Part shown: piece after piece, positions 1-33,204 of the stretch
How positions within the stretch are numbered: the stretch's first letter is position 1
How the letters are laid out: each line of letters begins with the position of its first letter
Assembly (NCBI RefSeq): GCF_944324525.1
Contig: NZ_CALUWS010000032.1
Span: 1-33,204, forward strand
From: an uncultured Desulfovibrio sp.
GTDB lineage: Bacteria; Desulfobacterota; Desulfovibrionia; Desulfovibrionales; Desulfovibrionaceae
Direction: 5' to 3'
Length of the DNA: 33,204 nt
Notes under the pieces: generated by a model
The model's input: only the letters and a program-made list of their open reading frames with translations
What the model was told of the DNA's origin: nothing
The model's database searches: none
Program-made: the position numbers and the translations under genes

Positions 1-69
1 TCTGCTGTCGATGTCCGTAAGGCTCCTGCGTCGCCTAACGGACACGGCCCTCCGGGCCGCCTTTCGGTC
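1..69 (+). repeat. Hairpin repeat, diverged left copy of the 71-bp family
   Basis: This stretch matches the tandem 71-bp unit found at 33058-33204, apart from a few substitutions and one extra base in each arm of the second stem. It carries two stems. The first is TGTCCGT (12-18) with ACGGACA (38-44). The second is GGCCC-TCC-GGGCC (46-58). In the right-hand copies the first stem reads TGCCCGT/ACGGGCA and the second GGCC-TCC-GGCC, so both stems change on both sides and pairing is kept. The left end is cut by the window. There are no spacers, so it is not CRISPR. REP/BIME-like is the nearest known class. Confidence 0.85.
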
Positions 70-299
70 GCCGCCGGTACGGGAGGGCCCAGCCTTTTCA
101 CAGCGAAGCGAGAAAAGACGTTCCCGTAATTCTTCCCCCCAAGCCCCCCATCCCTTCCCCAGCGCGCTTTTACAAAGAGAAGATACCGAGATACGAGGCA
201 GTGCCCAATGCTCTAAAAAGAAAACGCCCGTCGGAAGTTCCGGCGGGCGTTTGTCGTCTTTTTTTGTACTGACGGGTGCGGTTGCGTCACCGTCGAACG
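70..299. other. Gene-free left flank
   Basis: Between the repeat and the stop of the Rsm22-like gene I see no plausible gene. It holds a weak inverted pair, TACGGGA near 79 and TCCCGTA near 123, and the terminator described separately. Frames that run through it belong to the opposite strand of the neighbouring gene and resemble no protein. Confidence 0.6.
215..252 (-). terminator. Terminator of the Rsm22-like gene
   Basis: Read on the minus strand, AAACGCCCG and CGGGCGTTT form a 9-bp stem around a 13-nt loop, followed by TTTTCTTTTT. It lies 48 bp past the stop codon at 300. A T-run also follows the stem on the plus strand (257-265), so it may work both ways. Confidence 0.85.
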
Positions 300-7493: not shown

Positions 7494-7834
7494 GTCGCCT
7501 CCCTGTCAATATACGCATCCGCCGTGAAGCAGGCGTTCCCGCCACGGCATGTTGTGCTCGCCCGACCGGCTGCTGCCGCCTCTAGCGCCTTTTCAGTTTG
7601 AAACGCTGTGCGTCCCAAACCATACGGCCTGGCGTTTCGCGGAAAAAACGCGGTTTTTCCGCTCACTTTTGGCTGGCGGCGCTGTACCGCCGCCTCGCAG
7701 TTTGCTTTTTTCAAAGGCAAAATGCGCTATCTCCCCCCAAGATGCCTCGCGCGGCACGCAGCGACTCTTTCCGTCTTATCGGACGTCTCATCGTTTTTTC
7801 AAAGAGCGATGTGCTGTTTTTTTCCTGCAACTGC
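7494..7834. other. Gene-free region upstream of the chemoreceptor
   Basis: About 340 bp between the chemoreceptor start and the terminator of the NimA-like gene. It is largely taken up by the dispersed structured repeat at 7583-7729. The remaining sequence must hold the chemoreceptor promoter; TATATT near 7511-7516 is a possible -10, but I find no convincing -35. Confidence 0.55.
7583..7729 (+). repeat. Dispersed structured repeat, copy A
   Basis: This 147-bp segment shares long identical blocks with copy B (17707-17849). Its ends are inverted (TAGCGC at 7583-7588, GCGCTA at 7724-7729), and the inverted similarity continues inward imperfectly. Inside are two conserved hairpins: a GGCGGC/GCCGCC stem around 7675-7695, and GCGGAAAAA paired with TTTTTCCGC around 7640-7662. 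Both copies have the same orientation and lie just upstream of a minus-strand gene start. Confidence 0.8.
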
Positions 7835-17665: not shown

Positions 17666-17706
17666 GCAGTTCTTTCCCGTGCCGCCAAGCGGCCTTGGGC
17701 GCTCCA

Positions 17707-17849
17707 GAGCATTTTCCGTTTGCAACGCGTTGCCTTGCAAACCGTACGGCCTGGCGTTTCGCGGAAAAAACGCGCTTTTCCGCTCACGTTCGGCCGGGCG
17801 GCGCTGTGCTGCCGCCTCGCATCTTGCCTTTTTCAAAGGCAAAATGCTC
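17707..17849 (+). repeat. Dispersed structured repeat, copy B
   Basis: This is the second copy of the element at 7583-7729. It has inverted ends GAGCATTTT (17707-17715) and AAAATGCTC (17841-17849). The central block around 17738-17768 is nearly identical to copy A, and the same two internal hairpins are present. It lies in the pheS leader, directly downstream of the rplT terminator. Confidence 0.8.
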
Positions 17850-17860
17850 CAGAGTGCCGC

Positions 17861-17919
17861 AAAAAAACATACGCGGCACGCCGATCACAGGCCGGGCCTG
17901 TTGCCGGAGCGTGCCGCGT
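17861..17919 (-). terminator. rplT terminator
   Basis: On the minus strand an 11-bp stem, ACGCGGCACGC with GCGTGCCGCGT, encloses a loop with its own small stem (CAGG/CCTG) and is followed by ATGTTTTTTTG. It lies 25 bp after the rplT stop and separates the IF3/L35/L20 unit from pheST. Confidence 0.9.
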
Positions 17920-23149: not shown

Positions 23150-23291
23150 TACCCTGTGATTCTGAGGTATTAAAAGGAATTTCCCCGATACTGAACAGGC
23201 GGCGTCAAAATTCCGTTGCCGCTTCCGCGTCCCTCCCATTGACCCGCAGGTACAGGCCGGATATGGTCGAAGGCAGTGCAGCCTTTTAAGG

Positions 23292-23510
23292 TCAGGACTC
23301 ATTATCAGGCAATATGTTCTGACTGAGATATTTTTATAACTTGTTGTAAAATAAATACTTATTTTTATAATCTGAGGTTTTTTGTTTCCAATTACTTTTA
23401 CCCAAGTAGCGGGTTTTGGGGAAGATGGGGGAGTGTGAGGGGGAAGAAACCCCTTTTTGCCGCGAGCAAAAGGGGTTTCTTCCCCCTCACAAAAGAGTAA
23501 TGAGTCCTGA
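23292..23510. mobile_element. MITE-like element with 13-bp terminal inverted repeats
   Basis: The ends TCAGGACTCATTA (23292-23304) and TAATGAGTCCTGA (23498-23510) are exact inverted repeats. The 219-bp interior encodes nothing. It contains an AT-rich left part and, at 23434-23491, a hairpin with about 26-bp arms and a 5-nt loop (CGCGA). No target-site duplication is obvious. It could be a non-autonomous element moved by a transposase encoded elsewhere, or an insertion-sequence remnant. Confidence 0.6.
23434..23491. repeat. Very long internal hairpin of the MITE-like element
   Basis: TGTGAGGGGGAAG... pairs with its complement over about 26 bp with a single bulged T; the loop is CGCGA. No T-run follows on either strand, so it is not an ordinary terminator. 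Confidence 0.8.
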
Positions 23511-23513
23511 GCC

Positions 23514-23550
23514 TAGAGCGTTTCACCTTTGAAAAAGGTGAAACGCTCTA
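23514..23550. repeat. Perfect 17-bp hairpin, possible minimal relative of repeats A/B
   Basis: TAGAGCGTTTCACCTTT and its exact complement flank a GAA loop. The arm resembles the ends of copies A and B (TAGCGC... and GAGCATTTT...CCTTTGAAA), so it may be an element reduced to its two ends. It is next to the 219-bp element but outside its inverted repeats. Confidence 0.6.
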
Positions 23551-32317: not shown

Positions 32318-33010
32318 ATGCAGGACTTCCACAAGTTCATTAACGGCTTCAAGAACTTCCGCAGCTTTTACTACGATGCGGAGGTGGACTATTACGCCGC
32401 CCTGCGCGACGGGCAGCATCCCAAGGCGCTGGTCATCGCCTGCAGCGACTCGCGGGCTGACCCCGCCCTGCTCATGGGCTGCGACCCCGGCGACATCTTC
32501 GTCGTGCGCAATGTGGCCAACCTGGTGCCCCACGCTACGGAAGCAGGCCGCGGCGACGCGGTGCTGGCCGTGCTGGAGTACGGCGTGCGCCACCTTAAAG
32601 TGGAACACGTCATCGTGCTGGGGCACTCCTGCTGCGGCGGCATCCATGCGCTCATGCATCCCGAATCCACGCCCCCGGACAGCCATGTGGCGCACTGGGT
32701 CGCCATCGCCCGCCCCGCGCTGGAACGCATGGACGACGGCGACAACCGGGACGCCGCCGCCCATCGCCGGAACTGCGAGGAGGCCGCCGTCCTGCTCTCC
32801 GTAGAGAACCTGCTCTCCTATCCCTGGATACAGCGGCGGGTGGCCGAGCACAGGCTCTCCCTGCACGCCTGGTACTTCGACATGGAAGTGGGCGATCTGC
32901 TGGCCTATTTTCCTGACGCAGAGCGCTTTGAATCCCTGCATGAGCACGGGCTGCACCGGGATCTTTCCGGCCTCGGCCCCCATCTGCGCCGCCTGGTGGA
33001 AGGCGGCTAG
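32318..33010 (+). CDS. Beta-class carbonic anhydrase
   Basis: Interconverts CO2 and bicarbonate. The 230 residues carry the zinc and active-site residues of the beta class: C42, D44, R46 (ACSDSRADP) and H103, C106 (LGHSCCGG), plus VVRNVANLVP and AVLAVLEYGVRHLKVEHVIVLGH. Length is typical and there is no signal peptide, so it acts in the cytoplasm. It lies 12 bp after the zinc-domain chemoreceptor, with only a weak AGGG upstream, which suggests co-transcription. It may supply bicarbonate for carboxylation or equilibrate CO2 from organic-acid oxidation. Confidence 0.95.
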   Translation: MQDFHKFINGFKNFRSFYYDAEVDYYAALRDGQHPKALVIACSDSRADPALLMGCDPGDIFVVRNVANLVPHATEAGRGDAVLAVLEYGVRHLKVEHVIVLGHSCCGGIHALMHPESTPPDSHVAHWVAIARPALERMDDGDNRDAAAHRRNCEEAAVLLSVENLLSYPWIQRRVAEHRLSLHAWYFDMEVGDLLAYFPDAERFESLHEHGLHRDLSGLGPHLRRLVEGG

Positions 33011-33057
33011 AGGCTTTTGGCACTATTTGCTGTCTGTTTGAGGGGAAGGGGAACCCC

Positions 33058-33204
33058 GCGCTCTGCTGTCGATGCCCGTAAGACTCCTGCGTCGCCTAAC
33101 GGGCACGGCCTCCGGCCGCCTTTCGGTCGCGCTCTGCTGTCGATGCCCGTAAGACTCCTGCGTCGCCTAACGGGCACGGCCTCCGGCCGCCTTTCGGTCG
33201 CGCT
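33058..33204 (+). repeat. Tandem array of the 71-bp hairpin repeat
   Basis: Two identical 71-bp units (33058-33128, 33129-33199) and the first five bases of a third. Each has a stem TGCCCGT/ACGGGCA with a 19-nt loop, and a GGCC-TCC-GGCC stem. A diverged copy opens the window. The array continues past the window end, and there is no spacer between units. A DNA sequence break at a multi-copy repeat would explain why both window ends fall in it. Confidence 0.9.

Follow-up and report, generated by a model that had tools for sequence, protein, structure and literature searches.

Related repeat systems

MITEs derived from IS5-family insertion sequences (IS) are a known kind of element. Several other repeat systems also resemble the locus analysed here. 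The BOX elements of Streptococcus pneumoniae follow the plan boxA-(boxB)n-boxC, and their mobilisation in trans by an IS has been proposed, as outlined in PMC3049150. The REP/BIME sequences, the RAYT-associated GTAG repeats and the CGTC-tagged REPs are described in PMC3733652; a MITE of Coxiella is reported mainly from 3′ untranslated regions in the review PMC10969869.

The window is the whole stretch of DNA that was analysed, 33,204 nucleotides from an uncultured Desulfovibrio sp. Its ends carry copies of a conserved two-hairpin repeat of 71-74 nt (the unit). In this genome a non-autonomous element about 225-445 bp long (the carrier) bears the units, singly or two to four in tandem, in its apical loop. 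In overall plan, unit and carrier together appear closest to the pneumococcal BOX elements. Both are interspersed, MITE-like elements whose outer modules enclose tandem inner modules that form hairpins and vary in number, and for both a mobilisation in trans by an IS is proposed. Compared by plan and not by sequence with BOX as outlined in PMC3049150, the Desulfovibrio carrier differs in that it occurs in other bacteria and has IS5-family ends; moreover, its inner unit also exists without the carrier, and the carrier has an optional further module. A BOX-like modular element would thus be added in an unrelated group of anaerobes, and from their genomes one can read both which IS probably mobilises it and how widely its inner unit is distributed.

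The REP/BIME and GTAG repeats, in the form outlined in PMC3733652, are likewise short, high-copy imperfect palindromes, and some units are inverted neighbours in relatives; whereas the unit is 71-74 nt long with two hairpins, forms direct tandem arrays, has no GTAG foot and shows no RAYT association. The CGTC-tagged REPs, as sketched in the same source, share with it the palindromic form and the seeming lack of a dedicated transposase, but the unit is longer, two-hairpin and has no terminal CGTC, as read from the 40-copy alignment A1. The initial annotation of the window gave REP/BIME as the closest class; REP-like is a fair description of the unit, but the annotation had missed that the unit is the inner part of a larger IS5-type MITE. 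The carrier shares with IS5-derived MITEs the ends identical to those of an IS5-family IS, the TA target and the want of room for a transposase gene; it differs in that its apical loop holds arrays of an unrelated hairpin unit. Among the papers listed in searches of the literature on Desulfovibrio repeats, REP/RAYT and MITEs, none describes the element by its title and the beginning of its abstract. Integron attC sites were also considered; their two boxes stand in the reverse of the order in the Desulfovibrio unit, and this candidate was set aside.

The two-hairpin unit in the window

The window is the entire contig C32 of a 93-contig, 2.9 Mb draft assembly, and both of its ends break within the high-copy repeat. 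Among the contigs with a fetched stretch, at least 22 contig ends have a unit no more than 150 nt away. The repeat is therefore found at both window ends because the assembly breaks in a high-copy repeat, and these are not a biological pair of ends. The repeat thus helps explain the fragmented assemblies of such genomes.

The first unit lies at 1-70 on the forward strand (model R1, 93.6 bits, E 1e-18). Read directly from the letters, its stem 1 is TGTCCGT (12-18) paired with ACGGACA (38-44) around a 19-nt loop (19-37), and its stem 2 is CGGCCC (45-50), TCC, GGGCCG (54-59). At the other end, two identical units at 33060-33130 and 33131-33201, also on the forward strand, form a 71-nt tandem repeat (R1 85.5 bits each, at 33062-33129 and 33133-33200); their stem 1 is TGCCCGT/ACGGGCA and their stem 2 CGGCC TCC GGCCG. 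The letters GCT between the last unit and the contig end are compatible with the start of a third unit in this array. The three matches in the window compare with none in 100 shuffles.

The initial annotation had reported one copy at each window end; the repeat is indeed present at both, in three copies and not two. The two paired differences that it described between the ends, a T-A against a C-G pair in stem 1 and one C-G pair gained or lost in stem 2, were confirmed by direct reading. Its statement that the 19-nt loop of stem 1 is fixed does not hold, since one base differs between the window ends (AAGGCTCC.. versus AAGACTCC..) and the loop is 16 nt long (AAGGCCTTACGGCCTA) in some other copies of the genome. 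This loop can itself extend the stem beyond an A.A mismatch.

Copy number and arrays

A pattern of the loop and the 3′ arm (19-mer, up to 3 mismatches) found 124 matches in the genome, compared with 5 for the reversed control pattern. Across 352,855 bases retrieved around copies, at least 123 units were scored with both stem-1 arms, and the true number is higher, since other searches met further copies on contigs C78, C14 and C72. Of 143 unit heads recognised at first, 20 (false, cut or without a recognisable 3′ arm) are not among these 123. The conserved head is CTGTCGATG-like, and its TCGAT is invariant in the 40 rows of A1.

The 123 units form 85 head-to-tail arrays, including 55 single, 23 double, 6 triple and 1 quadruple (C82:72). 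Mean unit identity is 0.917 within arrays (47 pairs) versus 0.848 between arrays (2000 sampled pairs), which suggests that the arrays grow by slippage or unequal crossing-over. The arrays could provide variable-number loci for typing. In a relative (G097:C1, from 745355 onwards, locus L305), there are eight consecutive units, seven of them with equal model score and spaced at 73 nt.

Structure of the carrier element

The carrier has TAGGGCCTGTTAACACTA ends, with TA at the target and a pyrimidine preceding the TA. From left to right it consists of the end TAGGGCCTGTTAACACTATT, a hairpin arm rich in G (GGGGGGAAGGGGAACCCCTC), any number of units including none, the opposite arm (GGGAGGGGTTCCCCTTCCCCCC), in some copies an inverted-repeat module, then a block that finishes with CAGCGCGCTTTTA, and lastly the right end, which is inverted. 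The size classes of the complete carriers rest on counts of unit heads. Without the optional module, carriers with no head are 225-230 bp (n=7), those with one head 269-305 bp (n=7, the 269-bp one having the head only), those with two heads 355-374 bp (n=4) and the one with three heads 444 bp; with the module they are 246 bp (no head, n=1), 334-340 bp (one head, n=3) and 412 bp (two heads, n=1). The number of inner modules thus varies from 0 to 3 heads in complete carriers, and reaches 4 units at C82:72. Such a carrier surrounds most units; many of its copies are not complete, and in a few places, such as C30:9954, the unit has a different setting.

Two cut carriers, both on the forward strand, are found in the window. 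The 3′ part of one, cut by the contig start, occupies 1-215 by local alignment with the complete element C2:149619-150030; the match is good to about 200 and then decays, and the right terminal inverted repeat is unrecognisable, so that its end at about 215 is a judgement. It contains the optional module GGGCCCAGCCTTTTCACAGCGAAGCGAGAAAAGACGTT, an inverted repeat present in some elements only ('Alt', 85-122, by pattern and alignment), and the right-arm block CTTCCCCCC..CCATCCCTTCCCCAGCGCGCTTTTA (132-172, by the pattern Rarm and alignment). The 5′ part of the other, cut by the contig end, occupies 33008-33204 and aligns with a complete element from its first base; it includes a degenerate left terminal inverted repeat TAGAGGCTTTTGGCACTATTTG (33008-33029) and the left arm of the internal hairpin, AGGGGAAGGGGAACCCC (33041-33057, by direct reading and the pattern Larm).

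For the orientation of the unit in the carrier, 114 units were tested: the right-arm block lies downstream on the same strand in 72, on the reverse strand in none, and is not near in 42. As single-stranded DNA, a two-unit carrier has a folding z of -5.36. Of 20 unit flanks outside the MITE, no more than 5 exceed the 95% shuffle level when scored as hairpin arms, and 4 of these 5 are of one flank type; an apex position of the unit as a general rule is thus not supported there. The 107 flanks of the MITE class had been selected by their arms, so the high scores of 89 of them are no independent evidence for this position.

Probable IS5-family partner of the carrier

The carrier is classed as an IS5-type MITE because IS5-family insertion sequences of 825-827 bp in relatives have the same ends. 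In G117 the ends of an 827-bp IS match those of the carrier in 18 of 18 bases at both ends; this copy has open frames of 136 and 155 aa. The 825-bp IS of G177 has 2 and 0 mismatches to the carrier ends, and is the sole matching copy seen with one full frame, a 255-aa transposase of the IS5 family (NF033580, E 4.3e-70; also PF13340 and PF01609). At each end, the IS of G042 and G060 differ from the carrier in 1-2 bases. A transposase fragment in G103 terminates inside TAGTGTTAACAGGCCCTA, and the same ends delimit its homologues in G117, G177, G042 and G060. The likeness observed between the IS and the MITE is one of the ends only, and the carrier (225-444 bp versus 825-827 bp) is too short for a transposase gene. 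Mobilisation of the carrier by an IS5-family transposase appears well supported by the ends and the target.

No copy of an IS with the carrier ends was found in the assembly of the genome itself; the only match at E 1e-10, on C19, is 39% identical. This C19 copy was rejected as the partner, since it adjoins a MITE but has different ends. Three DDE_Tnp_1 hits occur in the genome, none with the carrier ends, and an IS630 (DDE_3) transposase was also dropped as a candidate, with no match in this genome.

Target sites, stop codons and mobility

The base preceding the TA at 104 outer carrier ends is C in 56, T in 40, G in 5 and A in 3. Of 24 complete elements, 13 have TA on both sides and the other 11 have a changed end. 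When the carrier enters a TAG or TAA stop codon at its TA, a TAG remains in place, and the insertion would be silent. An open frame of at least 100 codons enters the element in frame 0 at 50 of the 104 ends, versus 21 and 20 in the other frames; where the literal TAG is retained, it stops such a frame at 42 of 71 ends (binomial P 1.8e-5), these frames not being verified as genes. Counted by side in a slightly different way, such a frame is stopped at 29 of the 46 TAG ends on the left and at 10 of the 21 on the right. For example, the open frame at 32318-33010 in the window stops at the first TAG (33008-33010) of the right element. The initial annotation had proposed that copies be mapped relative to gene ends, and many begin at the end of an open frame and supply its TAG.

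Nested insertions, and one species-specific insertion into a shared element, may reflect mobility of the carrier. An element with no unit lies at a TA within the unit of another element (C6:12116-12527). In G044, a MITE with no unit appears inserted, seemingly at this same target, in the unit of an element which G000 and G105 have at the same site. A clean empty site of a single element was sought between the genome and its close relatives and not obtained; the region of C38:10206 is absent from G044, G103, G105 and G046 as a larger block of about 2.5 kb, with flanking hits that adjoin within 62-78 bases.

The element at C38:14094-14379 is common to G000, G044 and G105, whereas G102, G103 and G046 lose synteny at its site or close to it. 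These breaks look as if rearrangements had used the repeat. Numerous copies of another repeat, about 155 bp long (G000:C38, L338:3444-3605), occur in G044, G103 and G105 and are about 93% alike.

A second MITE family

A second family of MITEs has the ends TAGGCTCAGGACTCATTA, and a partner some 832 bp in length, which gives a DDE_Tnp_1 hit, is found in the genome (C45) and in G105. Both families seem, from the sites compared, to use the unit as an insertion target. The window has a copy of the second family (23287-23515, forward strand); it is bounded by TAAGGTCAGGACTCATTA and TAATGAGTCCTGAGCCTA, and no unit is recognised in it by model R1. The same two-hairpin unit is, however, present in the loop of copies from relatives (L246 and L306). 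The hairpin arms of the two families look alike, so that a joint transfer of arms and unit is as possible as two separate captures. In the region of G000:C21:4080, a TAGGCTCAGGACTCATTA-ended copy lies at the same TA inside a unit.

Distribution of the unit

A BLAST search with a one-unit element gave matches in 48 of 288 genomes of the family, many in the unit part alone. Model R1, which was built from 40 copies, found the unit in 61 of the 288 genomes and 12 of 44 genera, and in 3 of 297 genomes of a phylum sample, namely this genome and two others of its genus; both surveys used the stricter filters of Infernal, which lose weak matches. Among the matches listed are Candidatus Desulfovibrio gallistercoris, Desulfovibrio piger and Nitratidesulfovibrio oxamicus. 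By the names among these matches, the unit has so far been found only in Desulfovibrionaceae. In other genera it occurs without the TAGGGCCTGTTAACACTA-ended carrier, and some genomes have a second unit type (CTGTCGCTATCCGTAA ... AACGGCTACCG), in places as inverted neighbours. The unit pattern is also present in three IMG/VR contigs; phage records gave no match to window positions 33008-33204.

Covariation and folding

In alignment A1 (40 diverse copies), changes on both sides are found in 10 of the 16 pairs (24 cells), a level reached in 0 of 500 shuffles; slid controls gave 2-5 such pairs. The number of further pair types in A1 is not above the shuffles (16 versus 14.6; 145/500). In A2 (89 model-fitted matches, 70 of them distinct), an alignment which leans to the model, 13 of the 16 pairs are changed on both sides, in 65 cells compared with a shuffled mean of 15.7 cells, and none of 500 shuffles is as high in any of five measures. 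The compensatory changes in the unit stems are real, and the covariation across the family that the initial annotation had called for is present. Such paired changes over many species suggest that the folded shape of the unit is maintained.

Within the genome, 845 of 861 stem-1 cells are paired and 16 unpaired. Pair 3 of stem 1 is C-G in 76 units, T-A in 32, T.G in 3, C.A in 8, C.T in 3 and G.G in 1; pair 5 is C-G in 97, T-A in 23, T.G in 2 and C.A in 1. The Fisher P values of these associations (3.8e-18 and 1.4e-21) overstate the case, because the units are copied. A change of one arm without the other, named by the initial annotation as evidence against selection, is therefore seen in part of the copies (C.A, C.T and G.G at pair 3). 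The selection on the fold which it had read from two copies gains from the family-wide covariation; however, two copies alone are insufficient, and the covariation within the genome is partly that of three alleles multiplied by duplication. Compared with shuffles, single copies have a folding z of -1.85 (window 1-75), -0.89 (33062-33132), -0.94 (L140) and -2.26 (L141); of these four, only window 1-75 and L141 have both hairpins in the best fold.

Proposed explanation and its alternatives

The explanation that we consider probable as a whole is a REP-like two-hairpin unit of 71-74 nt on a non-autonomous IS5-type MITE. An IS5-family transposase, which may by now be absent from this genome or have escaped notice, would move the carrier in trans; the carrier may settle harmlessly at stop codons, where its first bases would restore the TAG. 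The units would multiply inside the carrier loop by slippage or unequal crossing-over, so that members of one array would resemble each other more than those of different arrays. The fold might, less certainly, be kept through recognition of the hairpin by a protein of the lineage, as single-stranded DNA or as RNA; a DNA parasite (REP-like, single-stranded DNA) is favoured over an RNA in gene 3′ ends, again less certainly. More tentatively, the unit could be a hairpin element of Desulfovibrionaceae in its own right, recognised by its structure through a putative non-RAYT enzyme; the two MITE families (TAGGGCCTGTTAACACTA and TAGGCTCAGGACTCATTA) and other long inverted repeats would have taken it into their loops, where it multiplies. 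Two selfish elements would then ride on one another.

The paired changes make the unit a test case for genomic hairpins, in which RNA function, recognition as single-stranded DNA and arm-to-arm copying have to be compared. A working RNA element would be transcribed in gene 3′ ends, its hairpins protecting or processing the messenger and its fold selected as RNA. The covariation in 13 of 16 pairs and the invariant unpaired bases between the stems would fit such an element, and carriers often start at open-frame ends, so that units would often fall in 3′ untranslated regions. However, unit copy number varies freely, the folding energies of single copies are weak, and no Rfam family reaches its gathering score with the unit: in the window tRNA alone does so and no family matches the unit, and five unit-bearing loci of relatives (E up to 5) gave three matches, all below the gathering score and only near units at chance level (one, to a microRNA family at E 3.7, lies across the edge of a unit of the second type in L146). 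We regard the RNA element as rather doubtful. Neutral covariation, by which template switching repairs one palindrome arm from the other before the repaired copy is spread by the carrier, would fit the three main stem alleles (49, 28 and 23 of 123 units), the mismatched or wobble intermediates at pair 3 (C.A 8, T.G 3) and the multiplication of units by duplication. It seems unlikely, since the A.A mismatch inside hairpin 1 (A19 and A37) stands unrepaired in all 40 diverse copies of A1; this mismatch and the invariant TCGAT speak against simple arm-to-arm copying, as do the conservation of bases outside the stems and the several pair types (GC, AU, CG, UA) at one position in A2 (columns 13-65). 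A REP of the classical kind, mobilised by a RAYT (Y1) transposase, would likewise be a short imperfect hairpin in high copy number, and unit types are inverted neighbours in some relatives (L211, L312 and L315). But Y1 transposases occur in 20 of 35 unit-bearing versus 26 of 44 other genomes of the genus (Fisher P 1), no unit was seen in 30 fetched Y1 loci, and A1 shows no GTAG foot; the link to a RAYT-type transposase raised in the initial annotation thus found no association behind it, and the RAYT/REP identity, ruled out as a working candidate on this lack and on the flanks, is very improbable.

Other repeats

In L211, L312 and L315, which belong to other species, the inverted unit types have about 40-50 nt between their heads and are REPIN-like. 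Another interspersed repeat was also observed in the window at 7580-7759 and 17702-17881; it consists of two blocks, which agree to 85% and 76% between these positions, and resembles sequence adjoining an IS end in L386.
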